DNA from: Asparagopsis taxiformis
Taxonomy: Eukaryota > Rhodophyta > Florideophyceae > Bonnemaisoniales > Bonnemaisoniaceae
NCBI GenBank assembly: GCA_030407315.1
Contig: JALQPE010003117.1
Span: 1-64,000, forward strand
Reading direction: 5' to 3'
Length of the DNA: 64,000 nt
Below the pieces are notes generated by a model. The model worked only from the letters and a program-made list of their open reading frames with translations. It made no database searches and was not told where the DNA came from. Position numbers and translations under genes: made by a program. Shown one piece after another: positions 12,676-62,148 of the stretch; position 1 is the stretch's first letter, and each line of letters begins with the position of its first letter.

Positions 12676-12873
12676 AAGTCGGTAGACTCCTTCCTCAGTG
12701 ACGAATTCTTGGTTGAACCTCCCCCGATGGGGTCTGACTCGGAGTCAGAATGTTCCGGAGACTTGTCCGATGGCATCACTTCTACTCTTGTTCAATGAGC
12801 TCACGTCTAACGACGAGTTTACTCTTCTTGGGTGGTTTCGGTGTGTCGCCGGTCGGCTAGGATGTCGGTAAGA

Positions 12874-42492: not shown

Positions 42493-42509
42493 CACTAGGA
42501 GGGCTTGAA
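42493..42509 (+). repeat. Left terminal inverted repeat of element D
   Basis: CACTAGGAGGGCTTGAA; pairs with 62130-62146. Confidence 0.9.
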
Positions 42510-42860
42510 GGTTCCAGAACAGTAAAAATAGTGTTTCAGAACAGTATTTCTAGTGTTCTTCAGAAGAAACAGTAACAACATCGTCTCAGGACAGTGTGTA
42601 GTGCGCCATGAACAGTGAATGCACTGTTCTTCCTCCAAATACACTGATTTGAGAGCGGTATATATTGTTCTGGAGATTTGAATGTACTGATCTACGAAAG
42701 AACAGTAAATAGTGTCCTGAGAAACGGTGAAAATAGTATTCATTGAACATAGAACGGTAAATGTGGTAACCGAGATGGTGAACTACTCACATACGGAACA
42801 GTGTAAACCGTTCCAAAGATTTAAATCAGTGTTGTTCCGGGTCAATGCTACTACGAATTG
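42510..42860. repeat. Left subterminal repeats of element D
   Basis: Short boxes such as CCAGAACAGT (42514), TCAGAACAGT (42536), AGGACAGTG (near 42588), AAAGAACAGTAAAT (near 42697) and GGAACAGTG (near 42797) occur in both orientations every 20-60 bp. In CACTA elements such arrays bind the element's own protein. Confidence 0.8.
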
Positions 42861-42884
42861 ATCGGTCTAAACCGAACTCAGTCT

Positions 42885-43520
42885 AAAGCACGAACTGAAA
42901 TTTCTGGATGAAGCTCTGGTCACTGGTGTGGCAACCAGAGGAGAGCAGTCGAAGAGATAGTTGATGCGATTGTAGAGGCGAAGAAGCGGATGGACAGCGA
43001 AGGAGGAACTGGGCTTAGCCGTGCGAAGGTGGAAGATATGGGGTAAAGACAATACAGGAGGTAAAGTAGTGCTGAAGATTTGAGTATCACACGGCCAAGA
43101 ACAAACAAGACCCCTTTTAATCGATCTCAGTTTCTTTTACTACCGGGACACAGCGGCATGGAGGGATACTCATTGAAGATGTGGCGCTTCGCCAGTGAGA
43201 CTGTACCAAAGTTAGATGCGATGATGCAGAAGAGGTTAATCTGGAAACGGTGAGCTGAAATGCCACAAAGATTAAGTCGGCCTACAACCGACTCGCCACT
43301 TGGGACAACAATTTGCGCGAGGAGCATGCTGAACTGCAGAACAAAAATCCTGGTACCGCTTCCAATACCCGTAACCTCCCAGATGACGTTTCCAACACTC
43401 ATGAAACGGACAACGCCGCTCTCCAGAAGGAACGTGACCAAATTCAAGCCCAGCTTCAGCGTTAACGCGCAGACCGCTATGATTTGCATTCGCGCAGCCT
43501 TCAGAGAGACAAAAGATGGT
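42885..43520 (+). pseudogene. Relic coiled-coil gene in element D
   Basis: Three open segments with coiled-coil character follow one another in different frames: one reading LKHELKFLDEALVTGVATR (near 42885-42945), one reading RRAVEEIVDAIVEAKKRMDS (to about 43048, ending at a possible splice donor GGTAAAG), and one reading IKSAYNRLATWDNNLREEHA to LQKERDQIQAQLQR (43268-43466). They may be exons or remnants of one small protein. No family is recognised. Confidence 0.35.
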
Positions 43521-44845
43521 AGGAAAAGATAGCATGCATCGAGGAAGCTTGGTAGCATCCGCACGCACTCCGACGCGGTACTGGTCTCGCGCTGGGCGCA
43601 AGTATATTTTCGGCATGTGGAACAAACAATAGTTGAGAAACAGGAGGTTGTTGTGAGGATGAGACTGCTACACGAAATGTATGCGCTGTCTGCATGTGCC
43701 AGTTGATAATTGTGAACTCATCAACGAAATGTTGGATGATGGAAGTTCGCACGGCGATTCAGTGCGGCGTGCACACTCACCGCAAGCTGCGACATGACTC
43801 GCGTGCGATCGATGCAGTTGCCGATATGTGATCCGCGGCGTTGTGGCGATGGACGACACTGCGATACTAGCGCAGTATCGTCTATCGCTAGTAGTCGTCA
43901 TCTGCAAGAAGGTTGTGGGTGGTCGTGGTAGTGGGTGCCCGCTTCCTGCATGTACGCAGGAAGAGAGCGTGCGTGTGTGCACATTGGAATAGTTTTCCGA
44001 GCCGTCGCGTGGATTGCATACCAACTTTTTGTACGCGATAACTTCGCCGAGGCGAAATGTTTGGAACATTTGTTCTGGCAAGGAGTGCATCTCAGTGCGC
44101 GCACCGGTTGCGTCACATGATCGAATGTGACGGTTGTGGCCGCTGAGTGTTGATGTCATTGTGCCGCTGCAGTGCGACATGTGCGATTGTGCGGTGTATT
44201 ACACGCTGTACTGTCTATGACATCAACTCACTGTTATGTTGTACCGAAGGTCGTGCGGCCGATGACCACACGTGGAGCCAGGACACAGTATACTACTCGT
44301 GTTATGGTCAGCGGTAGTGAAACCAGTGACAGCAATGGCTCACTGATGAACTGGCTGCAGAGATCGCACTACGGCCACCAGAAAATATGGGAGAAATTTT
44401 GATTTAGGGCTTCTCCCTGCGCTGGCAGCCAAACCATCGACATGACCGTTTTACAGCACGACATAACAGCGGTCAGTGGTTATGCGACTGATGTGTTGCT
44501 GAACTACTGACAGAATGACATAAGGTGGTCACTAGTCATGCGACCGATGATTAGGAAGATGTAGGGGGCGAAACGAGTGGCAGGTAGGGTGAGGTGGAGC
44601 TGAAGTCGTGTCTAGTTGGCCTTATAAATCACTGTATAGGAAAAGCCTTATTTGTGATGCAGTATTGTAGTGGTTCCACGACGGATAGGTGAGGATCACG
44701 ATTTTTAGGCGTTGATAATTGCTGAGAGGCACAGAGGTTCATAGTTTTGCACCGGTCTCCAGTGATCCTGAAGGCAGCGAAACGCCGATCCTGGATCGCT
44801 ACGACAAACCTTGCCTGGTAGTATCACACTGTTCCAAGGTGCATT
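43521..44845. other. Noncoding interval of element D with internal repeat
   Basis: No supported gene. At 44253-44350 is a partial copy of the repeat found twice at 55137-55390 (GTCGTGCGGCCGATGACCAC, then GTAGTGAAACCAGTGAC). Confidence 0.5.
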
Positions 44846-46621
44846 ATGCAGCGATCCAATATACGACGCAGAGTCACCAACCGAAACCAAGAGCCATTGG
44901 GCAAGAAACTGAAAAGGCCAAGCAGCGGCAGACGTTCAAGTGGTCCTCGTAGAGATGATAATGGTGACATTGAATCGTCTCCAGTAATACAAATGAGGGA
45001 ACCAGATACAGTCCAAGCAGAAGAGAACCCGTCTCAAGAAGAAGCTACAGCGGAGCCTTCCGTAGCCTACTCTGAAAGCATCCGGGTGATGCTGTCTGCT
45101 GCAGTGGAAAGTATGAAGAAGGAATTCCAAAGCCACATGCGCAGAACAGAAGAACAACTAGCCACACTTCATGGGCAAGTGAGCGAGCTCCATGATAGTT
45201 TGAAGCGTTTCAATGGAGATGTTCACGTTACCATGGCAGCAAACAATGCAAGGACGCCAGTAAGTTTGAGGAAGAATTCGTCTGCTCCCAAACAGGTAAT
45301 GCGCTCCGTAGAATGCTCCAATCCGACATTGCGGACAGAACTGGACGCTGTATTCCATGTTCAAAACATTTCTACCGTGACCATGGAGGCTGTCTGCACA
45401 TTCTTCAGGACTGCCTCCAGAGGAAAGGAGAATGAAAACTTCTACTCCAAGTTGATTTGCATAATCATGTATGGGCTTCGTGGGAACATGGCTAAGAGTA
45501 ATTTGCGGAAGGGTCTTGGTTTGGCACATTGTAACTTTCGCTTTTTCTTGGTGAAGAAGATCGTTGCGTACTGTGAAGATTTATATGGTGTAAATAGAAA
45601 TGGAGGAAGGCCCTGCACACAGACTGGAACTGGGAACTCGGAGGCTGCAACAAGACACGTCCCAGAATGGCTGAGGCAAGGATATATAAACTCGAAATGT
45701 ATGAAGTACGCGAGGCAATATGCGGAGAATACTCGCAAGTCGAGCACTTCCGAGGAACTAGAGGGGAACGATGGCGTTGCTATGTTTTTGTCATCAGGAC
45801 TTTACAGCCGCGTTACAGAATTCTTGCGAAAAGCCAGGGATCGGTCCAAATGTCAATTCTTTGAGGATATCGGATTCCTTCTTTCTCCCTGGACATGTTG
45901 TGAGTGGTTGCAAGGGTCTTATAACAAACCAAAAATTGAGCTGAAGTTCCCGGAAGAATGTATAATGTGTCCATCCAACGTGCCGGAAACGAGAGTGGGA
46001 CGCAGTGTCCAGGAATGCGCTGAGAACAAAACAACAGCAGCACATTTCATGCGATCACGTAAGGAATGCCATCTCTCTGTATCATATGATGTGAAAGTTG
46101 CCGAATGCGCAGGAATGAAAGTGAAGAAAGATGCCGAACTGAAGGATGCTACAATGACTAGAACGGTGAACATAATGGAAGTTGCTTTCAATTTTCTCGT
46201 AGCATACGTACAAGGACAAAGGAAGGAAGATTTCCTGGGTTCTTCTCCGATGGCTCTCCAGACAACCTATTCGGTAGCGCTGGTGTTTCGCCACATGATC
46301 ATGGAGCTCGTTATGACCAATGAATGGTCTGGGGAGAACGTTGAACCAAGTAGCTCAACGCCAGTTGCAGAGAACGTTGGAGATAGTGGTTCAATGGCAC
46401 AGATTAGAGTGTCAGATCTCATTCCTGGAGAGTACACCAGGAAAAATACTTTGGAGCGCGTATTGCGGATGACTTCACTCCAATTCAAGAACCTCATGGA
46501 CAATGATGATAGTGGAATTGAATCATATAACTCGGACAGCGGAGAAGACCCCGAGTCATTCACTATCCACGGTCACAACTCTGTAGACGACATCGATGTC
46601 TGCCAGATCGAGTCACTGTAG
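44846..46621 (+). CDS. 591-aa coiled-coil protein of element D, unknown function
   Basis: Intact ORF from ATG at 44846. The first 40 residues are very basic (RRRVTNRNQEPLGKKLKRPS), then comes an acidic stretch and a coiled coil at about residues 75-125 (MRRTEEQLATLHGQVSELHD). A helical middle contains ICIIMYGLRGNMAKSNLRKG. Several Cys residues (EECIMCPSN) occur later, and the tail is acidic (YNSDSGEDPESF). I recognise no domain. The arrangement of basic head, coiled coil and helical body resembles the minus-strand gene at 16550-18845 next to the other transposase. Both have an N-rich-basic segment ending in L-G (SNLRKGLG and RDRLFGSLG), but this resemblance is weak. A DNA-binding partner of the transposase, like TNPA of En/Spm, is a reasonable guess. 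Confidence 0.7.
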   Translation: MQRSNIRRRVTNRNQEPLGKKLKRPSSGRRSSGPRRDDNGDIESSPVIQMREPDTVQAEENPSQEEATAEPSVAYSESIRVMLSAAVESMKKEFQSHMRRTEEQLATLHGQVSELHDSLKRFNGDVHVTMAANNARTPVSLRKNSSAPKQVMRSVECSNPTLRTELDAVFHVQNISTVTMEAVCTFFRTASRGKENENFYSKLICIIMYGLRGNMAKSNLRKGLGLAHCNFRFFLVKKIVAYCEDLYGVNRNGGRPCTQTGTGNSEAATRHVPEWLRQGYINSKCMKYARQYAENTRKSSTSEELEGNDGVAMFLSSGLYSRVTEFLRKARDRSKCQFFEDIGFLLSPWTCCEWLQGSYNKPKIELKFPEECIMCPSNVPETRVGRSVQECAENKTTAAHFMRSRKECHLSVSYDVKVAECAGMKVKKDAELKDATMTRTVNIMEVAFNFLVAYVQGQRKEDFLGSSPMALQTTYSVALVFRHMIMELVMTNEWSGENVEPSSSTPVAENVGDSGSMAQIRVSDLIPGEYTRKNTLERVLRMTSLQFKNLMDNDDSGIESYNSDSGEDPESFTIHGHNSVDDIDVCQIESL

Positions 46622-47214
46622 ATGATTGGTAGTGATATGTGGGTAATGAGCCGTCAGCGAAGAGTGAATATCTTTCTGTTGTGTGCTTATTGATGTAGAA
46701 CCTGTGCATGCAAAGGTATTGTATCGCTCGTCATCCGTTATGCAACCGAGAAGGTTGGAAAATACCGGTCATGCACCCGTTTAAATCACAAATCACAGGC
46801 TATACAACCTGTGACGCCAGGGATAGTAGGGCTCACAACCAGGGACCAAAATCGCGGAATAGAATTTGTTGTACCGCTCGCCAGTGGTAATAAAACCAAT
46901 GACACCACGACAGGTACCGTACAGAGGCATTGATCTTATTGGCAGTAGATTCTAGGACTAGTGACCTATCATTCACTGGTAGTACTGCTTACAAAAACGT
47001 CTTGAGCAGTAGCGGCAATGTTCGTATACCTGCTCACGAGCATGTCAGTAGGTAAGCAACTAGTGCTCGTTCCAGTAGTATGGTATGCAACCATTAAGCA
47101 GTGTGCGAACAAGCGGTCGCTTGTTCGGAAATTGCCGGCAATTTGTAAAACTGGGCACCCAACGTTGAGGCGAGGATGCGATGTGCATTGGTCGGAGAGG
47201 TCAAACGGTCATGT
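46622..47214. other. Convergent spacer in element D
   Basis: Between the stops of the 591-aa and 456-aa genes. A plus-strand AATAAA occurs near 46888, followed by no ORF of note. Confidence 0.5.
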
Positions 47215-48585
47215 TTACTGGACGAGGGAACTAGAAGAATGGATCGGTAGGGCGTCAATGACTTCATTGTAGGAGTGTGCGCCGAAAAACGTCATGTATG
47301 GCAAATTAAGCTCCAGGGTTCCTAGGCTGTTCACGTTAGTGGAAATATCGCGGGACCATAGGCGCATTCTAGGGAACTCAGTTCTGTTCCAAGTCATGTT
47401 GAAAGAGTGTCCTGGATGAACAGGAACTGAAGCAGAATCATGGCCGGGTGGCGTCGGCCGTAAGGCATGGAAAATATCACGGACAGGCATGCTCCGATGG
47501 ACGAGGACGTTCTTATACATCATATTCGGTATGTCGAAGTCCAGGGATTTTCTGAAGAGCACGGGGAGAATGGAATGATCGATTGTACGATCATTGCATT
47601 TGTCGAAGTGGAATGGGTCACTTCTGGCGAGGGCAAAAATGAATGGTTCTCTACACGGATCTGTGCCACGCAGTAGAGTACCGAGCAAGCGCACGTATGA
47701 ATTGTCGGCAGCATTGATATTTTTGGGACCCCTTGCAGTTCTGAAGAGCCGGATTCGATCGGAGACTGCAGTCAAAGATATGGACTTGCACATGTCTGAA
47801 TATGAAGGGAAGAAGACGCTGAATTTGTTTGTATCGATTGGTGGCATCTGGGTCAGGGAGAAAGAAGGTTGAAATTCTGCACCCGGGCAGGTGGACCGCA
47901 CTGATCTCGCAATTATTTCGAAGTCCCGGATGGTACAGTCCGTGGTTATGGATATGAAACCCGTGGTAACTGTATCAATGCCATGATTAGATTCAGGAGT
48001 TCTTTTCCTAGATAATGGCCGTTCCCTGTGCTGTGCTAGTTTTAGTCTGAAGTAACCAAATATGCGATGGAGGACAGCATCTGATTCATTGACATGACCC
48101 ATTGTACTACCAAGACCGTGATGGAGAATCCATGCACGCTCCATGTTCTGCAAACGAGCGTGAAGGTCAGAAACTTTTTCGACCAATGCGGATTGCCCGG
48201 GACTAGAAGATCCCTCACCGGAGTCTGAAGAAGAAGCAGAAGGTGAATAAAAATGACAAACTCTCCACTGCAGCCTGCGTCTGAGACGAGTAGGGCGTGT
48301 TGTAGCAGAATCTACAGGGCTGAAAGGAATTTCTTCCAGATATCCCTTGAAGATACTTACATCAACAGAGGTTTCGGGATGGCCTAACATCGCCAAATAT
48401 GTCAGCGTGGCAGAACGGGGGATTCCTCGTCGAGTCAACCTGGCTACCTTTGCCTTCCACCAAACCCTGTTTGCGGAGTGTCTTGTCCGCCGGTTACACG
48501 TACCACTCGTATTCACGTTCCAGAGTACCTCAATGGCGATACCATCATGTAGAATGGACGGATGATCTATGGACGGATGATCCAT
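47215..48585 (-). CDS. 456-aa protein of element D with Tudor-like N-terminus
   Basis: Intact ORF; ATG chosen at 48585 (an upstream TTG at 48615 is in frame). Residues about 10-75 contain AIEVLWN, VWWKAKVARL and TLTYLAMLG, a pattern like the Tudor/SH3-like barrels that bind methylated protein tails. A Ser-rich, acidic stretch follows, then a short coiled coil (ALVEKVSDLHARLQNMERAW) and about 300 residues with no recognised family. It is transcribed towards the 591-aa gene and away from the minisatellite and helicase. If the Tudor-like call is right, it may link the element to chromatin. It could instead be an unrelated structural or regulatory protein. Confidence 0.6.
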   Translation of the reverse strand: MDHPSIDHPSILHDGIAIEVLWNVNTSGTCNRRTRHSANRVWWKAKVARLTRRGIPRSATLTYLAMLGHPETSVDVSIFKGYLEEIPFSPVDSATTRPTRLRRRLQWRVCHFYSPSASSSDSGEGSSSPGQSALVEKVSDLHARLQNMERAWILHHGLGSTMGHVNESDAVLHRIFGYFRLKLAQHRERPLSRKRTPESNHGIDTVTTGFISITTDCTIRDFEIIARSVRSTCPGAEFQPSFSLTQMPPIDTNKFSVFFPSYSDMCKSISLTAVSDRIRLFRTARGPKNINAADNSYVRLLGTLLRGTDPCREPFIFALARSDPFHFDKCNDRTIDHSILPVLFRKSLDFDIPNMMYKNVLVHRSMPVRDIFHALRPTPPGHDSASVPVHPGHSFNMTWNRTEFPRMRLWSRDISTNVNSLGTLELNLPYMTFFGAHSYNEVIDALPIHSSSSLVQ

Positions 48586-48730
48586 CGACAAACGATTGAG
48601 ATGTATCGTTCCCAAACAAGAATAGTATTATTTCAGTACTATTGTACGAACGTTCATGGTCGGTCGTGGAAGTAGGGACGACATGGACACGTGTCTAGAC
48701 TTGCAGTTCATCCACGGTCATGAAGTCAGT

Positions 48731-48764
48731 GAGGAGCAGGACAGCTGCAGCTGCCCTGCTCCTC
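48731..48764. repeat. 34-bp near-perfect palindrome
   Basis: GAGGAGCAGGACAGCTG and its reverse complement differ at one position and meet without a spacer. It lies at the edge of the 57-bp minisatellite, between the start of the 456-aa gene and the array. Confidence 0.85.
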
Positions 48765-48773
48765 ACCACATGT

Positions 48774-49806
48774 GGTTGTGCAACCGGTGACGAAGTGCAC
48801 ACGTGTGTAGTTATGCAGCTAGTTCTAGGCAGTTGTGAAGGCAGTGACGAGGTGCACACGTGTGTAGTTGTGCAAATGGTTGTCCGTGGTTTTGAAACCG
48901 GTGACGAAGTGCACACATGTGTAGTTGTGCAAATGGTTGTCCGTGGTTGTGAAACCGGTGACGGAGCGCACACGTGTGCGAGCATGCAGCTTGTTCCAGG
49001 CAGTTGTGAAGGCAGTGACGAGGTGGACACGTGTGTAGTTGTGCAAATGGTTGTCCTTGGTTTTGAAACCGGTGACGGAGCGCACACGTGTGTAGTTGTG
49101 CAAATGGTTGTCCGTGGTTGTGAAACCGGTGACGAGGTGCACACGTGTGTAGTTGTGCAAATGGTTGTCCGTGGTTGAAACCGGTGACGAGGTGCACACG
49201 TGTGTAGTTGTGCAAATGGTTGTCCGTGGTTGTGAAACCGGTGACGAGGTGCACACATGTGTAGTTGTGCAAATGGTTGTCCGTGGTTGTGAAACCGTGA
49301 CGAGGTGCACACGTGTGTAGTTGTGCAAATGGTTGTCCGTGGTTGTGAAACCGGTGACGAGGTGCACACGTGTGTAGTTGTGCAAATGGTTGTCCGTGGT
49401 TGTGAAACCGGTGACGAGGTGCACACATGTGTAGTTGTGCAAATGGTTGTCCGTGGTTGTGAAACCGGTGACGAGGTGCACACGTGTGTAGTTGTGCAAA
49501 TGGTTGTCCGTGGTTGTGAAACCGGTGACGGAGCGCACACGTGTGTAGTTGTGCAAATGGTTGTCCGTGGTTGTGAAACCGATGACGAGGTGCACACGTG
49601 TGTAGTCGTGCAAATGGTTGTCCGTGGTTGTGAAGGCAGTGACGAGGTGCACACGTGTGTAGTTGTGCAAATGGTTGTCCGTGGTTGTGAAACCGGTGAC
49701 GGAGCGCACACGTGTGCGAGCATGCAGCTTGTTGCAGGCAGTTGTGAAGGCAGTGACGAGGTGCACACGTGTGTAGTTGTGCAAATGGTTGTCCGTGGTT
49801 TGGTTG
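48774..49806. repeat. Minisatellite, 57-bp unit, about 18 copies
   Basis: The unit holds GTGACGAGGTGCACACGTGT, AGTTGTGCAAATGG and TTGTCCGTGG. Each unit includes the palindrome CACACGTGTG and a GTGAAACCGGTGAC box. Variants with a GCGAGCATGCAGCTTGTT segment occur near 48977 and 49717, which shows higher-order order. Because 57 is 19 codons, several frames on both strands stay open for up to 440 codons; I do not regard these as genes. Confidence 0.95.
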
Positions 49807-50560
49807 TGACACTGGTGAGAAGTGGACGGCTTGGTCTTGTTTCGGAAAGAGATGTACAGCGACTGGAGCGGACCATTATTGCCGAATTCAACAAGGAAGG
49901 ACTAAACTTGGTTCCGGTCTCGAGACTTAGAAGATTCCAGTAAGTCTGCAAAGTTTGTTGGAATAATGGCACCTTGCCATACCGTTTCCAATTGAATAGG
50001 GGAAATTTCTTAAGAACATGTCCCATGGCGATATAATTAGATTACGATGGCTCATAATTATTGGATGGTTCTGTACTTTCCTGCTATTCCCGTGTTTATA
50101 TGAAACGTTGGATCTGTGGACGGAGTGGATGAAACTCACCACTTAACCGCAAAGGGTGTGAATATTCCATTTCAATTCAAACCACCGTGAGGAAGATTCA
50201 GGGATATTTCATCACATCGGGGCGGCTTGTGTTGACATTATGAAGCTTCATAATGTCCTAGGATGGCTGCAACGAACGCAATGAAACCGCGGTTTCAGGG
50301 CACGATTCCGCACCGTTGGAATGGTCGCGAACATTCGTAATTAATTATAAAATTTGATGGTAGGAACGGTAGCAAAACCGCTTACAATAGAGATGAGAAC
50401 GTAAATTGATATTGAACCTATTACTAGGACAAGGATTTGTGAGGAGTGAAGAGCTCTTGACTTCTACAAGTATTGCACACAAACAGTGCACTCTGTTTAT
50501 CAGCTCCGCAGAATCGAAGTTCACAGAGATCCACTGCACACAAGAAACGAAAGATTGAAG
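49807..50560. other. Spacer upstream of the helicase gene
   Basis: No supported gene. The last 150 bp are AT-rich and should hold the helicase promoter and leader, but no clear TATA box is seen. Confidence 0.5.
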
Positions 50561-53500
50561 ATGCCGCCAGCACCGAGGAGACAGACACCGTACTCGTCTC
50601 CCACGGATGTGTTCGCTTCTATTAAACAATATATCCAAGGACGGCCACCTGTTGGTGATAACACTTCGGCTTCGCAGTGGGCTGCATGGGAAAGACAAGT
50701 AACGCGCGATGCACAAGAGTTCGTCAACAGTTCGGAGTGTAATCTATATATTGGGAACGGGACCCGCCCTACCCCGCCCGCTCACGTTGTCACCAGAGTC
50801 GTCCAACGGGCATGCGTGTTCTATACAGAGCAATGTCTGAATACTTTGCGTCTATATCCGAGAGGCGTGTTTGGTGATATGAATGGTTTCGTGATACCCT
50901 TTACGTCGAAGAAAAAAGTGTTGAAAAATGTTCTAACAGCTCTGGATTTCAGGAACGTCCTTTCGAAGATCGAGTCGTGGATGTCTGATGAGTGGATATA
51001 CGCTGTAGCTATGCAAAAGGCCAAGCTACATAATTATCCATCTCATAGTTTTACTTGGAGCATTAGCCAAGAAGGTCGGTCGTGGATGCTATCATGGTAT
51101 ATTCATACAATGTCATGGGTGTGTCTGCTAATAACGAAAGTCCAGGACAGGAACTCTGACCGTGGGATACCGGAAGTGCTAGATTCTTGTTGCGCTCCGG
51201 TCGAGTACGACGTGCCGCTTGAAAATTATGGCATGGTTCGTGATGTACATGCAATCATTTCACAAGCCATTTTCGGTGGCCTCAGATTTGTTGCCGAACG
51301 GAAAATACGAGCCGCAACCCCGGAGCAGTGCACATTCGTGACCGGAAACCGTGGAGTGAGGAGAAAGGTGTTGAAGAAGGAGAACCTGGTTAGTGCCAAT
51401 GCTATGTTCAAGTATGTAATGGACGCCGAAGAAGACAGGAGTGTGGTACCGAAACTGTATGCCGTTGTAATGCACGTTCTCGTCGGAATGGAAGCGCTAC
51501 CGGCGAATATCGCGTATGGTCAGCGATATGATGATGCTCTGAGATCATCATTGGAAAATTTCATGTCTCGCATGCTGTCCGCTATAGACAGTGATGCAGA
51601 GAACATTAGCAGTTCCATACGCGAATCATCCCAACAACGCAGACAAGCTCGCATTCGGACATGGCTGACCGCATTCATAGAGAATAGTACAAGAATTAAC
51701 CAGGTTGACGTGGTGAGACCATTGGAGGGAGCAACAAATACAGGACGGCGTAAAAATCACGAAAGAAACGTACAGAGTGCTGGTGGCTCACCTCCCGAAC
51801 GGCCGCCAGTGCCGGAGGCCAACGTGCAGGAGGAAAGAGATGGACAACTAGAACATACCGTCGCAGGGAATGATGAAGCGAACGGTGACCGAAATGAAGA
51901 AGATGAGATCGTACCAACAGAACGAACTGCTATGGACGAGCGGACCGCTCGTGCGAGACGTCGTAGTGCCGTGCGACGTCGGCAGGTTGCACAAACCGAG
52001 GATGGTCCTGTCGAAGAAGACTCGCAGCGCGGTGGAGAAGAAGGCCCAGAAACCAGTGGTGCAGGAAGCGTGCAACCTGCTGTGGAGCCCGGACAGGATC
52101 GTGCGTCGAAGAAACCTCGGCATGCGGAAGTATGTCCTACATGCGAACAACCATGGCCGCAGACAGTGGAATCACCGAACACTGCAAATACCACACCGGA
52201 AAAAAATCTGGGTCAGAAATTGACCAACTCGTCACAGGTTGTTCGACCGGAGCACACTTCTATTTCAGTGGATTTACCACCAGTATCGTCACATGTTTTG
52301 CGACCAGAGCGAAATTCAATTGCAGTGGATGTACCACCACTGGTGGCACTATCGTCACAACGGCCCAAGCCAAAATCTTCTTCGTTGTCGATAACTGCTG
52401 GACCCGCACTATCAGTGGATGTGCAGCCAGCACCACCACCCTCACCCGTCTGGGATCCACCACCAATACCGCAGGAGGCAGTCCAGCAACAGGCAGTCCA
52501 GCAACAGCGCCATAAACCGCGGGTACCTGTACAGCGAGCTGCACGCAAAGGGTATCACTACGACGATGTCCCGATACAAATAGAAGGTATATCCTTGAAC
52601 ACAAATCTCTCACCCAATGCAATACTGGCGAACTGGTCTTCGAATGCCTCTTTCTCGTTTCCGCGACGGGGATTCGAGAGTAGCTGGGTACGAAATCGTG
52701 TCATATTTCGTGGTCAGAATCCTCGTCTGGCTCCGAACTTCATGTACTTCTCGTGGTATGACTTCTTGTCAACCAGTTTCACACTTTGTATTTACAAGAT
52801 GGTTTTGGAACTAGCGGAAGTTGCACAGAAGCATGAGACCTGGTATCCAGCTACACAAAGAGACCCATTGCTCGATAACGATTACGACCTCTATAGGCTA
52901 GATTCCGACGCATCAGGCAACGGGAATAGTAGGAGGTTCGAAGCTTCACGAACTGCACCGTCGACCCGAGACAGCGTATCATTCAGAAGCTGGGATGTCG
53001 TCACCGTCGATGTCATAGACCGCAGCCGACAGACGGAACCACTGGAATGTTGCTTAGGTGTTGTTGAAGATTTCACTACGAACAAAACCCGTGCCCAAAC
53101 CCGCCTCTCTTTGACAATTATCGCCTTGGGTTCTGTGCGACATGCGCGATATTCGCAGGGTACGGAGGGGCTTGCAATAGTCGTTCGCAGATCAGGCTAT
53201 CTCGGAACAGAAGGTATGCAATGTGAAGCAATACGAAACCTTCCTGCGATACATCCTGGATGGCATGAGCTGTTCCTAGGCACTTCAAGGGCGGCCACAT
53301 CTAACCAGCGATGGCTACAGCAGGATGGTTCCTTAGTTCGAGAAGAATACGAAAAGCTTCTCGCGCACTGTTTGCCCGGTGCTGTTCTAGTACCATCTGG
53401 AAGCACTAACACTCAGAAATACATGCTTGAGATGACAGACCTAAACGGAGCAGATGTGCATCACGATGGTCCGCCGAAAATGAATAGATCTCAAGCAGCT

Positions 53501-55009
53501 GCAGTGTTGGAATGTCTGATATCGTCGGAGCTGTCAGAACGAAAGCCAAGGGGGCTTCTTGATCGAGTATGCTGTGTGGTCGGTCCAGCAGCAACTGGGA
53601 AGACGAGTACAATTATGCATTACATTTCTGCTCTTCTGAACAAGGTGGCCTACGACATGGTAGAAGCTGAGGCGGCACGAGTCAGAGTGGCTGGTGGTAG
53701 CGTGCACGCGACAGCTATTTCTGCTCTTAACAGACCTGGGACAAAGGTACGCATTCTAGTCGTGTCTGTATCGAATACCGCCGTGGATGTCATCGAATCC
53801 AAACTTCTTGACGGTATTTTCATGGTCCAGTCGCGTTCTACAGTTCCCACACTTGTGCGACCTCCTTTCGAGCGGAAAACAGCTCGAGATACAAGCGGCG
53901 GTAGTGAACGTGCAGTCACGAACAGGGGAAGGAAGCGCATATTATTTGGTGCAGCCAGTGGGGAACTGTCATCTCCATGCATTGTATTGAGCACTTTCGG
54001 TTCGTTGTGGCGGTTATTTAGAGACAATCCAACGGCAAAGTTCGATGCAATCGTTGTTGATGAGGCTTCTCAAGCTGCCGACGTTGATTACCTTCCCCTC
54101 GTACAATTTCTGGCTGAAAATTTTAAGGTTGAGGACGCGCCTCCTTTGTCTCTCTTCGGAGATCCCATGCAACAGAGCCCTGTCCTGCGTGGACCGCGAA
54201 ACATCATGTCCTCTATCTATACAATGTCTTGGCTGGATAGGCTTGCTCGTAACGAATCATCGCATCTTCGTCACTCAAATATAGTACGCTGCGTCTGTCT
54301 TCAAGAGCAATATCGCATGCATCCGGAGATTAACAGAGTTTCCAATGTCATAGCGCACAGGAATGTGGCCGACCATCACTCTTGTGTTCCAACCAGTGAT
54401 ACTTATACCAAGTGGTTGATCCCTTACGTTTATGGGAACGGTGCTCGTGTCCCGATCTACACGAGTGAGGCGAAGGATATCAGCCTTACCGACCTGTCCC
54501 ATCCCGTCCGCCTCTTCGATCCTTATTTCAGGCGAAGGAACAATCATTTTCCATATGGGGAAATATCAATGCAAACAAGCTATGACACGAGCGTTCCGGA
54601 GGCGATATTAATATCCGAATTGGTCCGAATCCTCCTCACCGTTCCAAATATGCGCCAGGAAGATATTCTCATCTTGACTGTATACAACAAGCAACGGTCC
54701 TGTATCCTTGCACATCTTGCTGCGATGTTCGCGAACGTCTACGAACATGAGCCCTGCACCATAACTGTTTCTACTATTGCCGCTGCGCAGGGTAGCGAAA
54801 GTCCAGTAGTGATATACAGTGCGACAAGAAATGGGAGAAGAACGTCTAGCAGCAGTACTCATGACAGCCTCGGTTTAGTTGATGACGTTCGCGGTATTTA
54901 TGTGATGGTCACACGGGCTATGCGTCATCTATACATAGTGGGGGAATTCGATTTCTTGGTATCAAAGAGTGCTGACTGGACGAGGGTTGTGAAAGAAACT
55001 TCACCATAG
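50561..55009 (+). CDS. SF1 (UPF1/SEN1-like) helicase carried by element D
   Basis: Intact 1,482-aa ORF from ATG at 50561; the frame is open upstream only with non-ATG codons. Residues 1-400 form a helical domain I do not recognise. Residues about 400-690 are acidic then Pro/Ser-rich. The C-terminal part (about 960-1475) has every SF1 motif: Walker A GPAATGKTS (K1014), motif II VVDEASQ (D1167, E1168), motif III LFGDPMQQ (1199-1205), motif IV QYRMHP (1250-1255), motif V AAAQGSE (Q1410) and motif VI MVTRAMRHLYIVG (R1452). DEAS and QYRMHP are typical of the UPF1/SEN1/DNA2 branch. It should unwind RNA or DNA in an ATP-dependent way. Inside a CACTA-type element it may serve replication, repair or transcript control of the transposon. 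Capture from a host helicase is likely. Confidence 0.93.
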   Translation: MPPAPRRQTPYSSPTDVFASIKQYIQGRPPVGDNTSASQWAAWERQVTRDAQEFVNSSECNLYIGNGTRPTPPAHVVTRVVQRACVFYTEQCLNTLRLYPRGVFGDMNGFVIPFTSKKKVLKNVLTALDFRNVLSKIESWMSDEWIYAVAMQKAKLHNYPSHSFTWSISQEGRSWMLSWYIHTMSWVCLLITKVQDRNSDRGIPEVLDSCCAPVEYDVPLENYGMVRDVHAIISQAIFGGLRFVAERKIRAATPEQCTFVTGNRGVRRKVLKKENLVSANAMFKYVMDAEEDRSVVPKLYAVVMHVLVGMEALPANIAYGQRYDDALRSSLENFMSRMLSAIDSDAENISSSIRESSQQRRQARIRTWLTAFIENSTRINQVDVVRPLEGATNTGRRKNHERNVQSAGGSPPERPPVPEANVQEERDGQLEHTVAGNDEANGDRNEEDEIVPTERTAMDERTARARRRSAVRRRQVAQTEDGPVEEDSQRGGEEGPETSGAGSVQPAVEPGQDRASKKPRHAEVCPTCEQPWPQTVESPNTANTTPEKNLGQKLTNSSQVVRPEHTSISVDLPPVSSHVLRPERNSIAVDVPPLVALSSQRPKPKSSSLSITAGPALSVDVQPAPPPSPVWDPPPIPQEAVQQQAVQQQRHKPRVPVQRAARKGYHYDDVPIQIEGISLNTNLSPNAILANWSSNASFSFPRRGFESSWVRNRVIFRGQNPRLAPNFMYFSWYDFLSTSFTLCIYKMVLELAEVAQKHETWYPATQRDPLLDNDYDLYRLDSDASGNGNSRRFEASRTAPSTRDSVSFRSWDVVTVDVIDRSRQTEPLECCLGVVEDFTTNKTRAQTRLSLTIIALGSVRHARYSQGTEGLAIVVRRSGYLGTEGMQCEAIRNLPAIHPGWHELFLGTSRAATSNQRWLQQDGSLVREEYEKLLAHCLPGAVLVPSGSTNTQKYMLEMTDLNGADVHHDGPPKMNRSQAAAVLECLISSELSERKPRGLLDRVCCVVGPAATGKTSTIMHYISALLNKVAYDMVEAEAARVRVAGGSVHATAISALNRPGTKVRILVVSVSNTAVDVIESKLLDGIFMVQSRSTVPTLVRPPFERKTARDTSGGSERAVTNRGRKRILFGAASGELSSPCIVLSTFGSLWRLFRDNPTAKFDAIVVDEASQAADVDYLPLVQFLAENFKVEDAPPLSLFGDPMQQSPVLRGPRNIMSSIYTMSWLDRLARNESSHLRHSNIVRCVCLQEQYRMHPEINRVSNVIAHRNVADHHSCVPTSDTYTKWLIPYVYGNGARVPIYTSEAKDISLTDLSHPVRLFDPYFRRRNNHFPYGEISMQTSYDTSVPEAILISELVRILLTVPNMRQEDILILTVYNKQRSCILAHLAAMFANVYEHEPCTITVSTIAAAQGSESPVVIYSATRNGRRTSSSSTHDSLGLVDDVRGIYVMVTRAMRHLYIVGEFDFLVSKSADWTRVVKETSP

Positions 55010-55055
55010 CTTCCTACAACTCCCTTTCCTTTCAACTATAGTTGGCCTCCCTTCC

Positions 55056-55061
55056 AATAAA
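55056..55061 (+). terminator. AATAAA polyadenylation signal after the helicase gene
   Basis: AATAAA about 50 bp after the helicase stop, in a good position for 3' end formation. Confidence 0.5.
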
Positions 55062-55136
55062 CTTGATTTTTTCAAATACCAACGTTCTGGTCAGCAGTTG
55101 TGCAGCCAGGGACATGGATTTTTTCAAATACCAACG

Positions 55137-55390
55137 TTCTGGTCAGCGGTTGTGCAACCACGGACATGGATGGCTCATTGAGGAACCAAAATGGGGGTGT
55201 TCAGCAGAGGTCGTGCGGCCGATGACCACACGTGTAGCCTGGATACGTTGTGCTACACGTGTTCTGGTCAGCGGTTGTGCAACCAGGGACATGGATGGCT
55301 CACTGAGGAACCAAAATGGGGGTGTTCGGCAGAGGTCGTGCGGCCGATGACCACACGTGTAGCCAGGACACATCACGCTACACTTCTGCT
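55137..55390 (+). repeat. Tandem pair of about 125-bp repeats in element D
   Basis: Each copy has GGTCAGCGGTTGTGCAACCA, GACATGGATGGCTCA, AACCAAAATGGGGGTGTTC, GGTCGTGCGGCCGATGACCA and CACACGTGTAGCC. A partial third copy is at 44253-44350, and part of a fourth precedes it near 55085. Confidence 0.85.
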
Positions 55391-55910
55391 GGTCAGGGGT
55401 AGTGAAACCAGTGACACAAACGCACTCATTGATTGTGCAATGTGGTCTGGAATACTTATGCGGGGTGGCGTGAACTGTGGCGAGTATGTTCACTACGTTG
55501 TTGAAACGTGATATCGCTAACCCCTGCCACTGCGAATTGAGATGTTGATTAATCAACATTTCAAAACAAAACAATTGTTTTGTTCTCGTCCGTGGCAGAG
55601 ATGCAAGTGACACGTTCATGCATGATACTGTCATCGTCGTATCAACGATGATAACTCGTATGGTCCTGGCTCTGCGGATGGGTAACATATCTCAATTGCG
55701 CCGTAACCTCGAGGTTCTGGATCCGGTGTGTTTTAAGGGCCATTTTTGATCTGTACATAGGTGATAAATAAAAGTACATTGGGAATATCAAATTTCGCCT
55801 AGTTCTATTACCGAGGTCAACTGGTTCGTTCTCTGCACCTCGCAGTTCATTGTACCACTGCTCGTCTGGTATCGTGGTATTGATCTCTCTCGTTGGTAAC
55901 CAGCCTGGAG
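55391..55910. other. Spacer between helicase repeats and transposase
   Basis: No gene seen; it should include the transposase promoter. Confidence 0.45.
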
Positions 55911-58900
55911 ATGGTTCGGCGCAGACTTCTACGTTCTGGAACACATTACAGGCTGCGAAAAGATCGATTCAGATCTTGGTCAACCCTTGGAAACGCAACT
56001 GCAATAGCATGTGTTCCACGTACGACGGAAAGTCTTCCCAACCGGACTAGCTTCACGGACGGTGTTCTGGATGAAGATGTTGATGCTGTAATCGACAGGA
56101 TACTCAGCAACCTCGAAGAGGATGACGAGTCCGATACCGAAAACGGCGAGGAATACTCTTTCCACTTTACATGGCAATCTCTGATCGCTGTTATGTCCGT
56201 GACTGGATCAGTGCGTTTCTCAGTCGATCAGTACACATTTTTTGTTACCTGTGTGAACTGGCTTGTCGAGTACTCCAACTGCGGATTATCTCCGTTCCCA
56301 TCTTATTCCACTCTGCAAAGATACATTCTCCCTCATGTCGTCAGTTCTTCACTCCCCAGGTCAAAACAGGTCCTGCTTCCCCTCGACATCTCCAAGTCCG
56401 GTGCATCTGTGCATCAAAGTATCCAATCACGGAAATCGAGAAACATAGGCCCTATCACAGGGGGCCTACGATACCAGTTTCAATCGTCCTGCCCTCATCA
56501 TGGGCGAGACATGATGTTTCTTTCAAGCCTTTATGGGAACAGATGAAAACTACCTCCACAGGTGCCGTAAGTAATACACCGGGAGCGACTATTCATGAGA
56601 CCATAGAGGATATCCCTATGATTACTGATAGAGACCATATCCTCGATCCAATCTGTACTGCTCCACGGCCCTCCCATTCCCAGGGTGTGCCTCCAATTCA
56701 GGAAGACATTCGTCTATACCATGGTATGAATCTCAAATTGACTTTGCGCGCTCCTTCCAAGAACATCATGGACCTACTGAGTTCATTTCGGTTTGAGCAC
56801 AGCCCTTCGGGCTCTACCGTATTGTACGCTAAAGGAACGCAGTCTTTCCTTGTCCGGAGGCCACCGCCAGATATCAACTTCTCTACTAATGAAACTGCAT
56901 GGTTTGCATACGAGTCGGTGGCGTCGAAACTGAAGAACCTCTGGAGAGCTGGTGATATTTGCACACTTCTGAAAACTACAAAACTGTCTTCTTCAGTTCC
57001 AGCGTCTTCTGGCTTTGCACACCTCATTGTTCACCGTCATCTCCGCTTACGAAACAGTTATTCCCCTTATCTATTAGCGATTGTTCCAGAAACCTCTGCT
57101 GCAGATCTCTCTGCTGCTTATCGTTCCTTCTCTGCTACAGTTCTTTCTGTTGAGGCATCTCCACCGCAACATACAATGCGTTCGAACCCCAGATCCACGA
57201 ACGCCACCAAGTCCTTCGGCACTCTACATGATGGTACCCCGTACTTCATTTACAGAATCCTGTTGTACTGCGACGGGTTCTCCCAGTACAACGAAAGGAA
57301 GGGGTCAGCCGGTGGCGTGTACATGATTCCTTTGAATCTGCCATGTCATGTTCGATCTTCCAGGCGAGGTGTCAGAACTATTTCTCTTGCACCGCCAGGT
57401 GTTTCTACTAATGCAATCCTCCACGAAATCATCGGAGACATCGTACATCATTCTACACATGGCCTGAGTATGCTCGACGCCGACGGTAATCACATCCGAG
57501 TTTTTTTAGATCTTGTCGCCTTCATTGGAGATTATCCAGAAATCACGAACGTTCTAGATTTATTGGGACACAACTCCGCCTGTCCCTGTCATCTTTGTTC
57601 CTTCAAACGAATTCCAAATCATATGACTGAGGCAAGTAGATACTGTTCTACCATTGCAGTGCATAGCCTCGACCCTGCGTTCATGCGAACTGCGGACAGG
57701 ACCTTGGTCATCCGTGACTCAAATATTTCCTCAGAAGAGTCCAAATCAATTGGAATGAAAGATGCATCCACTGACACAAAGAAAAGCCCCTTGTTTTCCC
57801 TTCATTCCGCCCTCAACGAGGCGTTCAGAACTACTCCACGACCGTTCTTTTCAGACGGCTCAATTCTTCCCTACCCCCATTTTGATCCCTACCGTTCCTG
57901 CCTCGTTGCTCCCGATCATCTCCTATCCGGAATTGCGAAGAATGTACTTAACATGGCGTTCGTTCTTTTGCCGAGAGAATATCAAGTACTTGCTGATATT
58001 CACATCTGCAATGCTCTCCGAACAAACGGTCTCGTGGCACAACATCGTATCTTCTCTCCTGCAGCATGCAGTATGTATAGTATGAGCATATCAGGATTAT
58101 TTTCCACACTATCAATTGCTCCAGAGGTGTTCACTGATCTTTGCTATACAATCCGTGCAAATACAAATTCGAATTCTTCTGATGCTCATCCTACCACAGC
58201 TTTATCGTTCGACAGTGCTGCCATCCACGAGAAAGGAACTGCTGTTTTATCGACCTACCGCCAGCTTGTGGCAAACACTTACTGGTATCCCTCCCTACAA
58301 ACCGATGGTGTTGGCTGTGTTCAAATGTACAATGAAAACGCTGGCGAGTATTGGCAACATGCTCTGCTGCGTACCGCGGAAGACTTCTTGACAAAATCGG
58401 ACATGCTATGCCGCCTTTCACCACTCTGTCGTCAGCATTTGGATAAGCCAAACTCCCACAGACTAATAGAGTTATATAGGCACACCATACCTGCTATGGG
58501 ACATGTACGCCATTTTGGCGAGCTTGTCTTTGAAAGTGCACATCAGCCATTGAAGAGAATTATATCGAAGTCTAACCATCAGCACCCACACCTACAAGCA
58601 GTTTCCCATGCCCTCTTCGACGATTGGAAGCATAGAATATCAACAGTTATGAAATATGGTGACGGACATGAACAATTGCCCTTGTCCGGAAGATCTCCAC
58701 TTTTGCCCGCACTGAATGATACTGTAAACGCCTCGCATGAAACCATAGGAGAAGTCGGAAGTGACAGGCGTTCAACAGAGCCCCAAATCAAGCTTGTCAC
58801 GAACTTACTTTCTCATACTCCTACATTAACGCTTCCAACCATCTATTCTACCCATTGGGTTTTGAAAGACAAGTGGGTATCTCATTCCACCGATCAGGAG

Positions 58901-59494
58901 ATTCCTCTAAATGATAGATATTCCATTGAAAAGCTGCTGCTCTCTGCCTTCGCGGAAGAGCCCCGGGAGGGAAAACTTTTTTCATATTACAAATCCGCCA
59001 TCCGCGGGAAGACAACTGGTAACCTTCCCCCTTATTCAGTATTTCAACAAAGCTCAGTTCACATCCTGAGAAGGGGTACTGCACTCCAATCACTGATTTT
59101 CGGGGACGTGTCGGCGCCCTTGCTGTGCCAGCCGTACGTGGAATCCGACCGACACTTCTTCTTCGACATAAGCAAGGCATACACCTTCCTGGTCTGCGCA
59201 ATTTTGAGTGTTCACGTAGAGGGTGGAACTGCTGAGCCGTTCGCAGCTGTGTGGCCCTTACCCCGCATCCTTTCCAAAGGTTCCATGGTTATACATGCTA
59301 GGAAATCTGGCTTACAGCTTTTACGCCTCACTTCTTCCGTGATTCGAGTTGCAACTATACATGCATGTTCCACAGAACACAAATGCTCTGCAAACACTAC
59401 CCTCCACCAGGTCAGCCACTCTTCGGCACTCCTGGATGGCGGTTCACATTACGTCGTCGATAGATCCCTGGGTTACCCTCCTAGAACGGCATAA
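55911..59494 (+). pseudogene. CACTA/KDZ-type DDE transposase of element D (one frameshift)
   Basis: This is predicted to cut both ends of element D and join them to a TA target. ATG at 55911 opens a frame with an acidic region and SFHFTWQSLIAVMSVT. After a one-base loss in the G run 56460-56464 the frame to 59494 continues with PVSIVLPSSWARHDVSF, typical of Plavaka-like proteins. Landmarks: YCDGFSQY (candidate catalytic Asp, codon at 57272), GDYPE (Asp codon at 57530), zinc-like CPCHLC (57581-57598), VAPDHLLSGIAKNVL (like the D..H..LGI.K motif), and FGELVFESAHQPLKR (Glu codon at 58532). About 1,195 residues in all. With no intron the frameshift would inactivate it unless it is a consensus error. 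It is clearly different in sequence from the transposase at 13558-16472. Confidence 0.8.
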
Positions 59495-61229
59495 ACTGTA
59501 CTGATCCACAACCCGAAATATACAATTCCTTTCGGCAGTCACCGGTTTCGAAACCTGTTTCATTGTCACCGGTTTCGAAACCTGTTTCTCCTTCACTGTC
59601 ACCGGTTTCAAAACCTGTTTCTGCTTGTGTGTGTTCGTCACTGTTTTCGAAACAACTGCCATTGTTCTATTACAATAATTTGGTTACATTAGGCAGTCCT
59701 TCCACATTTTGCCGCTCTTCTATTCTCGCGTGAAAGCTGCAGCTTTCTGCTGCATGCAGCTTTCTTCCTTTCATGCATTTCATGAAATGCAAGTGCACTT
59801 CAGAAGGACAGCCTCCGACGTCTGCGGCTTTCCCTCTCCAGTTCAATGCTACATTTCCGCTAAATCACTGCCCTCGGCTGTCAGTGGTTGTGCAACCCAT
59901 GGTCTCTTCAACACCTGCTGCCCTCCATCTCATGTTCCACTACTGTGCATACCCATCATTATACCGACAAACACACATGCCTGTCAGAGGTTCTCCAACC
60001 GATGACATCCTCCGTCCTGGGTTTTCACACAATACCTCTTACGGGCCACATCACACCTCCCAAGGCGTATCTCTAGCCGTCATCACAAACTTCTAAATCA
60101 CTTGGCATTAATGTTCCCAGACTGTGCCAGGTCATTGCTTCAACAGGGCGTCAGAGTGGTTATTTCGTCCTTTCTACGATGATTCTATTTTTAATATTCA
60201 ACCATGATTGTATTGCCAGGCCAGTCTGCTCAAATACATTGACATATGATTGATTTCCGCCGTTCACAGCTGTGACTTGGCAAGCGATACTATCCGCTGG
60301 CAAGTAGTACGTCGCAATTCACATTGTGTCTTCCGGGCCAGTGACCAACAAGCTTGCCAAATCACTCAGCCCACGAACCTAGGTTTTTCTCTACTCCTGA
60401 CACCAGCCGCAAGTTGCCAATTATGCTCCTAGACGATCTCCCACTCCTTGCCTCATATAAATACAGAGAGAACTCAATAACATCTCTCCAGGAAAATCTC
60501 GCTCATGCAATTTTCTCACACTATCGTTCCGAACACCTCATCCCTGTTGCACGCTTCTTCACTATCGTTCCGAACACCTCATACCTTTTCCACGCTTCTT
60601 GGAAGGTTCATTTTGCTCATCTATTGTCTACTTCACGTATCATCTTCGTCATTGTATGATTTTGCCGACTCACATTTATCCCAACTCCGAATGGCCTTCT
60701 TCGACAATGGAGACAGCACTACTTTCAAACTATCTCGCACCCTTCAAGTCACCATGTTTCGTTGGTTTGTACTCACCATTTTCAACCGCTCATAATCCTG
60801 CCAGTGGTTGTGCAACCGGTGTTTCCTGAAATCACTCTCCGTTATCATTACCCAGGTTGTGCAACCGGTGTTTTCTGATATCACTCTACACTATCATTGC
60901 CCGGGCTTACCACTTCTTTTTCTTTCCTTGTACATTTCTTCTTTCTTTGCACAGTCTGTACATCAATCACACTCCTCCATCTCAAAATTCAAATACCACG
61001 AGCCGGATACTGTTTTGGTGATGCATCTATCAATCTTCATTATCGTTAATATAGCTCTGTCCTTTCCTTCCAAATAAATATTGCTTCAGAGCATCTGTTG
61101 CCTTCACACCTACACTACTTTACCATATCTGTCTTCAATACATCCCAAAATCTAGTGTTCCCGGAGCACATTATGGCATTTCTGGTTTGAAAATTAGGTT
61201 TCAATTTACACCGTTATGGTATTTCTGGT
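59495..61229. other. Noncoding 3' part of element D with palindromic boxes
   Basis: No supported gene. Perfect GGTTTCGAAACC palindromes lie at 59544-59555 and 59571-59582, with a GGTTTCAAAACC variant at 59604-59615. GGTTGTGCAACC-type boxes occur near 59885, 60805 and 60858. Confidence 0.6.
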
Positions 61230-62129
61230 TCGGTAATTTAGAGCTCCTAGAACGGTGTACAGCATCCATGTCTTTTAGTTATAGTGATCCCAGAACAATT
61301 TATGACGTTCCTGTTTTCGAATCGCATTGTTCCTAGAACGGTATATACTGTTCATGAATTGAACTTTCACTATTCGCAGAACGCTCTCTACTGTTCCCCG
61401 TTTCGATGTTCACTGTTCCTGGAACATCCCTCATCGTCTCCATGTTCCTACTTTAGTATTCCAAGAACAGGCTGTGATGATCCAGGCCGCCTTTTTTGCT
61501 CTTCCCAGGACAGTACATGGTGTCCTTGTTCGTTGGATTCATTGTTCCCAGGACTTCCAACAGTGTTCCTGGTTTCTATGCATACTGGCTCCGGATCAAT
61601 CTTCGGTGATCCCAGTCTCCATCTATATCACTTCAGGGACTGTCTTTACTGTTTTGTCGCGTTCCATGTCTGTACTCCTAGAACAGTCCTTGTCGTTCCT
61701 GCTTCCAAATTCACTGTTCAGCGAACGCTATGTTCCGTTTTCCTCCTCTCACTACATTGCTCCAAAGAACGGTTTGTATTGTTTGCAGTTCCGATATTAT
61801 GTCAGTCTACACCGTTCATTTGGTGTTGTTTGTATAGTTCCTGGAGTATTCGAAGCTGTTCTGGGTACTCCACCACGCTGTTCCCAGAACAATGATTACT
61901 GTCCCAGAATGTCAACATAGTGTTCCCAGAACAGTAAGATTGCTTCCTGGAAGTCTAATACAGTGTTCTCAGGAACGTTCTTCATCGTTCTCATGTTTGA
62001 AATACCGTTCTATGAATTGTCCATACTGTTCTCGGTTTTAAATATACTGTTCTCCGGACAGTACTCTTCTTGTTCCATGAACAGTGTTTGGTGACACAAT
62101 AAAACACTGTTTCACTGTTCTCAGTGCAT
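61230..62129. repeat. Right subterminal repeats of element D
   Basis: About 900 bp with dozens of GAACAGT/ACTGTTC-type boxes in both orientations, such as CCTAGAACAGTCC (near 61678), TTCCCAGAACA (near 61880) and TTCCCAGAACAGT (61923-61935). They match the left subterminal boxes. Confidence 0.82.
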
Positions 62130-62146
62130 TTCGTGCCTTCCTAGTG
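62130..62146 (-). repeat. Right terminal inverted repeat of element D
   Basis: The plus strand ends TTCGTGCCTTCCTAGTG; its complement CACTAGGAAGGCACGAA pairs with 42493-42509. Confidence 0.9.
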
Positions 62147-62148
62147 TA
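62147..62148. repeat. TA target duplication of element D, right
   Basis: TA directly after CCTAGTG; partner of 42491-42492. Confidence 0.85.

Follow-up and report, generated by a model that had tools for sequence, protein, structure and literature searches.

Chondrus crispus carries giant EnSpm families of 16-20 kb with four to five open reading frames (Kojima, Bao, Jurka 2013, Repbase Rep. 13:2577, as described in a passage of PMC6431247), and giant EnSpm elements with accessory genes have been reported in red algae, in Bostrychia moritziana (Petroll et al. 2025, as cited in a passage of PMC12477816). The CACTA elements of plants carry a second gene, ORF2 (excerpt of PMC4158355). Helicases are encoded by KolobokH and the rhodophyte Kolobok-1_CCri, which have a RecQ helicase (excerpt of PMC9587614), and by the Helitron, a mobile DNA element with an encoded helicase (excerpt of PMC12730594). 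Here we analysed a window of 64,000 nucleotides from the red alga Asparagopsis taxiformis (contig JALQPE010003117.1, positions 1 to 64,000), in which a DNA transposon of 19,654 bp occupies positions 42493-62146 and encodes a helicase of superfamily 1 (SF1). The window is part of a 141-Mb assembly of 3,156 contigs, to which all genome-wide counts refer; contigs are named below by C and a number.

The element represents, at full length, a family of giant CACTA-ended transposons in the EnSpm/Plavaka (CMC) group that was amplified recently, and its four genes are inherited together in the family. The helicase is almost certainly a resident gene of the element, because of its identical copies, the ratio of nonsynonymous to synonymous substitution rates (dN/dS) in older copies, a homologue in a relative on contig C3064 and a genome survey of the AAA_12 domain. 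Very probably it is under selection for a function of the element. A first-pass annotation, made from the letters of the window, had predicted full-length copies with the helicase between their ends; the case for a resident gene goes beyond this prediction because of the selection on the frame and the homologue in the diverged sister. As a whole, a giant CACTA-ended element with a resident helicase, proposed to act on element DNA, is the best explanation, with a probability of roughly 0.6. A DDE transposase of the cut-and-paste kind is not generally regarded as requiring its own helicase. The genes of the element are the following.

44822-46621, plus strand: P0001, a 599-residue frame with a coiled-coil-like stretch (by eye), supported by its dN/dS and a homologue on C1745
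47215-48627, minus strand: P0002, a 470-residue frame, dN/dS 0.34 (bootstrap 0.20-0.56) against the copy on C1650
50561-55009, plus strand: Upf1/Sen1-type SF1 helicase, 1,482 residues from the first methionine, identified by Pfam, motifs and solved relatives
56126-59494, plus strand: DDE transposase, EnSpm/Plavaka-like, with the frame shifted near 56460 relative to the copy on C2664

The helicase gene across copies and relatives

The genome was searched with the two ends of the element, allowing up to 3 mismatches. The 5' 23-mer gave 79 matches and the 3' 25-mer 78, and the reversed-pattern controls gave 0. Ends were paired over at most 31 kb and longer pairings were dropped, which resulted in 50 elements and left 29 5' ends and 28 3' ends unpaired. 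By coordinates, a helicase match lay inside 13 of these 50 copies. The count includes C1550, which was rejected as a helicase-free copy since the gene is present there at 99.9% DNA identity, broken into pieces that lie in several frames. Eleven of the 13 copies measured 19.3-21.0 kb, C2057 was a case of nesting that spans 29 kb, and a deletion had reduced C1957 to 12.7 kb. In 11 of these copies the distance between the 5' end and the helicase start was 7.2-8.1 kb. The flanks of eight helicase copies (the window, C2664, C1877, C1952, C2162, C2514, C2838 and C1650) were all different, and the full-length copies predicted by the first-pass annotation were thus found. The C2664 copy, which lies at a different site and is flanked by TG on either side, matched the window in long pieces at 98.9-100% identity (BLASTN pieces of up to 150 bp were dropped from the copy comparison). 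The same gene order was observed in the diverged copy on C1650.

At least 17 helicase matches were full-length and 100% identical (17 of 32 matches). The helicase copies are undercounted, because only 31 of the 104 candidates were scored. Among 33 helicase rows, 14 lay between paired ends, 17 had one correctly oriented end on the contig, in some cases 14-25 kb away, and 2 had neither. The neighbouring contigs C1551/C1552, C2867/C2868 and C2183/C2184 resemble duplicate assemblies, so that the 13 helicase copies do not represent 13 proven sites.

The protein shows the SF1 motif series GPAATGKT, DEAS, GDPMQ, QYRMHP, AQGSE and VTRAM, and it matched AAA_11 with 53.1 bits and AAA_12 with 82.3 bits, above the Pfam cut-offs (27), in agreement with the first reading of its 1,482 residues. 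By sequence, the nearest solved structures were Sen1, a 5'-3' RNA helicase-like protein and UPF1. No Pfam family matched the first ~1,000 residues, and NCBIfam returned helicase names below cut-off only (best IGHMBP2, 55.2 versus 348.9 bits). When viral contigs were scanned with the helicase, 9 pattern matches and 0 relatives were obtained. A fold of the C-terminal 779 residues, predicted from the single sequence, reached a mean pLDDT (predicted local distance difference test) of 29.6 and was set aside. Judged from these matches, the protein is an Upf1/Sen1-type SF1 helicase with predicted unwinding activity.

For the dN/dS values, codons with gaps or stops were dropped. The helicase was compared with three older copies on C112, C1650 and C3061, which are 12-14% diverged in the helicase protein. 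This gave a dN/dS of 0.50-0.53 with bootstrap upper limits of 0.63-0.67. The transposase gave 0.30-0.32 (C112, C1650), and five other reading frames 0.67-1.64. The older copies are decayed by stops and by 1-bp indels in the transposase and P0002; the helicase indels listed for them are 24, 24 and 9 bp long. For the changes common to C112 and C3061 the helicase dN/dS was 0.46 (0.37-0.59), and by region 0.32, 0.64 (linker 431-740), 0.45 and 0.45. Between the two decayed copies C112 and C3061 it was 1.5, as if selection had ended once the older copies lost activity. The substitution pattern indicates that the helicase frame is under purifying selection, which supports the earlier proposal that the helicase serves the element.

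A sister element was found on C3064. Its helicase homologue shows 38% identity in residues 38-954 and 54% in 964-1518 with the motifs kept, its transposase is 59-61% identical, and the two genes stand in the same order on the same strand. They are followed by a 3' end that aligned with the terminal 72 bp of the element at 73.6% and terminates in CCTAGTG. The helicase dN/dS was 0.14-0.17 (core ~0.14) at saturated synonymous sites. The C3064 helicase and transposase likely belong to one element. In 4 kb of the interval between them (L055, C3064:29588-33587) two Sel1-like frames were seen by eye, either an insertion or a further accessory gene.

The transposase on C1745 is 42% identical, and a homologue of P0001 (25-31%) lies upstream. 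This locus (L056, C1745:13203-17202) is possibly a compact two-gene relative, with CACTAGT ~140 bp before the transposase frame. The simplest reading of these relationships would be that a two-gene core, a P0001-like gene and the transposase, comparable to plant CACTA elements with ORF2, gained the helicase before the split from C3064; a loss of the helicase in the C1745 lineage is a possible alternative to the later gain.

What the helicase may do and rival explanations

According to the proposed mechanism, the DDE transposase would cut and join the CACTA ends and P0001 would perhaps bind the subterminal repeats. The helicase would act on the element DNA in trans, as a nucleic-acid motor driven by ATP, and would help the element, with its 20 kb, to complete excision, strand transfer or gap repair. 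A function on DNA, in transposition or repair, is proposed tentatively and is preferred to a role on RNA.

Several observations weigh against this explanation. Upf1-type helicases act on RNA and DNA, which leaves it undecided which step the helicase serves. The helicases of C112 and C1650 share 99.96% identity, so that these two copies are non-independent, and in the linker 431-740 selection is not clear (0.64, range 0.42-1.00). On C3064 the helicase is decayed, with two stops and a frame break, it lies 15.7 kb from the transposase, and a 5' terminus was not seen before the contig end. On C1745, the 4 kb upstream contained no helicase and the contig gave no match to AAA_12, so that this kind of transposase may do without a helicase. 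Further, 37 of the 50 paired copies had no helicase match and the helicase is therefore not needed in cis. Among them, the outer copy on C2184 retains transposase residues 109-891; it lost the helicase by deletion, because its sequence passes directly from the tandem array into the beginning of the transposase.

The strongest rival is that the helicase is resident and acts on RNA or R-loops, where it would blunt small-RNA or chromatin silencing and have no role in cut-and-paste. Relatives of this helicase branch, namely SDE3, MOV10 and Armitage, work in RNA silencing, and the solved structures nearest to the protein point in the same direction. DNA transposons with genes for silencing or chromatin marks are known, such as the Vandal regulators and SET and TET/JBP genes (excerpt of PMC12730594). 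However, Pfam found no RNA-binding domain in the helicase, and RNA and DNA substrates are not separable by sequence. We regard this role as rather unlikely, and the action on DNA is favoured.

The second rival holds that the helicase was captured by chance and spread as a passenger when a single copy was recently amplified. The young copies hardly differ from one another and any cargo would have travelled with them, most paired copies are without the gene, and none was found for the 42% C1745 family. The first-pass annotation had named copies lacking the helicase as the sign of such a capture. These exist in number, but 35 of the 37 are only 9.8-14.4 kb long, and among eight whose interiors were read, seven also lacked the core of the transposase, much of which is preserved in the eighth. 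On C147, C356, C1980, C2196, C2183 and in the inner C2184 copy, the transposase frame is reduced to its first ~45 and last ~55 residues and a helicase is absent. The seven copies look like deletion derivatives that were moved in trans. Nested insertions lengthened the two longer helicase-free copies, which measure 19.7 kb (C2936) and 23.7 kb (the outer one on C2184). C2936 was rejected as a helicase-free full-length copy, since it proved to be a short derivative in which a Ty3 element is nested; it has neither the helicase nor the transposase protein. Against a passenger, the older copies keep the helicase at a dN/dS below 1 in spite of their divergence, and the sister on C3064 has a homologue whose core is 54% identical. 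A chance capture is largely refuted and seems very improbable.

It could also be argued that the helicase serves the alga and that the transposon is only its vehicle, for which specific support is lacking. In the genome search with AAA_12, all 55 of 55 candidates were scored and 46 matched; 8 host-like rows at 101-207 bits stand apart from 38 weaker ones at 30-89 bits, 4 of which (C729, C724, C2351, C3062) were outside the comparison with the helicase protein. Moreover, an element end is absent from the contig in just 2 of the 33 helicase rows. A use by the host is hence hardly credible.

A misassembly, or a chimeric fusion between a transposon and a gene for a helicase, to which the duplicate-looking contigs, the array and homopolymer differences between copies and the 3 of 16 copies without a matching duplication might point, is very improbable in view of eight helicase copies with eight different flanks and the recurring gene order on C1650.

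A speculative but conceivable history, which we would not count on, is the following. A CACTA-ended lineage, split from two-gene relatives like C1745, may have taken up an Upf1/Sen1-type helicase as an essential motor for elements of at least 20 kb, or as a shield of its transcripts against silencing. This would be the first SF1 helicase acting together with a CMC-group transposase. A CMC element with a selected helicase offers a tractable case for studying the size limits of transposons, the repair after excision and the defence against RNA silencing in red algae. The helicase-free derivatives and the apparently helicase-free relative in the same genome provide natural controls.

Ends, genes and surroundings of the element

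The ends of the element are CACTAGGA...TCCTAGTG and are inverted-complementary at 14 of the first 17 bp. The features outside the genes are the following.

42491-42492, no strand: left copy of the 2-bp target site duplication (TA in the window), from the flank comparison
42493-42509, plus strand: 5' terminal inverted repeat CACTAGGAGGGCTTGAA, 14 of 17 positions matching the 3' end
42493-42992, no strand: 5' subterminal repeat zone with 14 motifs, GAACAGT (9) exceeding ACTGTTC (5)
48772-49800, no strand: 57-bp tandem array of 18 copies, variable between element copies
60747-62146, no strand: 3' subterminal repeat zone with 36 motifs, ACTGTTC (23) exceeding GAACAGT (13)
62130-62146, minus strand: 3' terminal inverted repeat ...TTCGTGCCTTCCTAGTG, the inverted match to the 5' end
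62147-62148, no strand: right copy of the target site duplication (TA), from the flank comparison

The subterminal motifs were counted with at most 1 mismatch. The 14 motifs in the left 500 bp compare with a mean of 1.4 and a maximum of 5 in 200 mononucleotide shuffles, the 36 in the right 1,400 bp with a shuffle mean of 4.1 and a maximum of 12. The 15-kb interior had 56 motifs versus a mean of 40 and a maximum of 50 in 7 shuffles. The ends at 42493 and 62146 with TA on both sides of this copy, and the subterminal GAACAGT repeats, are therefore as first described.

The element is inserted in a Ty3-type reverse transcriptase. When the flanks were joined by eye they read ...Ser-Met-Pro-Tyr-Arg..., and a 952-residue open frame on C2936 contains the same stretch without interruption, which confirms that removal of the element restores the Pro-Tyr-Arg codons. 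The reverse transcriptase copy in the window is decayed, because it leaves the C2936 frame shortly past the insertion site (by eye). Matching 2-bp flanks were observed in 13 of 16 copies, with the sequences TA, TG, CA, CG, CC, TT, AC, AA and GT, where a chance match is expected in 1/16 at even base use; no matching duplication was found at C2514, C2838 and C1833. A third base common to both sides was seen neither in the window nor in C2664. The duplication is therefore 2 bp of varied sequence, and the preference for TA as a target, which the first reading had assumed, was incorrect.

P0001 gave a dN/dS of 0.50 (bootstrap 0.34-0.83) against C1650, where it has one stop, and is a candidate for a CACTA ORF2/TnpA-like partner. 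P0002 had no match in the Pfam search and shows one 1-bp indel in C1650. The frame P0003, antisense of the 57-bp array, was dropped as a gene; its TM_HPP match (27.3 versus a cut-off of 27.2 bits) is regarded as a repeat artefact and probably spurious.

The transposase has the candidate catalytic residues D383, D469 and E803, with C488xxC491 between the second D and the E (by eye), and all of these are also kept in C3064. In the stretch 468-803, where histidine spacings of 2 to 7 were tested, neither H.{3}H nor H.{4}H occurred and only the spacings 2, 6 and 7 were found. The match to Plavaka PF18759 reached 19.9 bits (E 4.8e-4), or 21.4 bits (1.6e-4) with the core, and remained under the cut-off of 26.3. 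A search for solved relatives in the PDB gave none at E 1. Pfam gave no KDZ match either; from the previous description as a DDE transposase with CACTA/KDZ landmarks, the DDE assignment with CACTA-type ends was retained and the KDZ label was rejected as wrong.

Relative to C2664, the window transposase lacks a single G of a homopolymer near 56460 (residue ~109). A 1203-residue frame was present in 17 rows of the genome search and agrees with the window frame from residue 109 on. For the first 120 residues of the window frame the dN/dS was 1.3 and constraint was not seen; C776 seems to share the window frame over residues 1-481. The window copy of the transposase may be defective, or the homopolymer may contain a base-calling error.

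Other features were noted in the window. At 25162-29370 on the plus strand lies a 1,403-residue frame without a Pfam or NCBIfam match, and members of the element family at C178 and C285 are inserted into its copies. A 1,082-residue frame at 19503-22748 on the minus strand combines a bacterial-type DNA N6/N4 methyltransferase (PF01555) with a SET domain; fragments of its relatives adjoin element ends at C2183 and C2184, and it may be an epigenetic gene belonging to a different giant transposon. At 13986-16469 on the plus strand lies a second transposase of the Plavaka type (PF18759, E 1.2e-16), which has a close copy in C1980 and was not alignable to the transposase of the element (BLASTP E 0.92). 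The minus strand of 7109-12744 holds a retrotransposon of the Ty3/gypsy type in which gag and pol domains were recognised. Elsewhere, at locus L027, a diverged piece of a transposase was seen that matched no Pfam family.

On the plastid-like contig C469 (224 kb), 11 of the 13 phycobilisome-family matches of the genome were located. Three stretches code for pairs that were named by eye as phycocyanin-, phycoerythrin- and allophycocyanin-like. Chains labelled R-phycoerythrin or "fluorescent protein" are the nearest to the phycoerythrin alpha chain, and phycocyanins to the phycocyanin alpha chain. One phycobiliprotein match recurs with the same score at a distance of 177 kb, which would fit a circular molecule read past its start. 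Other contigs gave 10 matches to light-harvesting proteins. If C469 comes from the same organism as the window, these genes point to a red-algal host, probably a florideophyte.

Comparison with known systems

Among the literature matches listed, no helicase was described in CACTA, EnSpm or Plavaka elements; the search did not extend to Repbase Reports and the Bostrychia paper, where an earlier description is possible. The nearest precedent is Kolobok, which like the present element is a DDE transposon encoding a helicase and includes a red-algal case. Kolobok belongs to another transposase superfamily, and RecQ is an SF2 helicase, whereas the helicase described here is of the Upf1/Sen1 type of SF1. 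In contrast to Helitrons, the element has DDE-type ends and duplications, and Pfam found no HUH/Rep domain in five of its frames.

The element resembles the giant EnSpm families of Chondrus crispus in its red algal host, its size and its number of frames, and those of Bostrychia moritziana as a giant EnSpm element of a red alga with accessory genes, both compared through the citing descriptions. It may belong to or neighbour the Chondrus families. Subterminal repeats are typical of CACTA/EnSpm. The element has them, together with the CACTA...TAGTG ends, a DDE transposase with CxxC between the second D and the E, and a candidate second gene of the ORF2 kind; it differs from this group by a duplication of 2 bp instead of 3 bp, by its length of 20 kb, by four genes of which one encodes an SF1 helicase, and by a transposase in which the H(3-4)H spacing was not found.

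Plavaka elements make duplications of 2-3 bp and have ends of the type TGT..ACA or CATCA..TGATG, and Zisupton (KDZ) has an 8-bp target site duplication (both from an excerpt of PMC12730594). The size of the duplication fits Plavaka, but the transposase match is weak and below cut-off and the ends CACTAGGA..TCCTAGTG are different. With 2 bp instead of 8 bp the element is also unlike Zisupton, and its varied duplications distinguish it from ESTA with its TA duplications. Since it departs from CACTA in the 3-bp duplication, from Plavaka in the cut-off and the ends and from Zisupton in the 8-bp duplication, we file the element as a distinct lineage of the CMC group.

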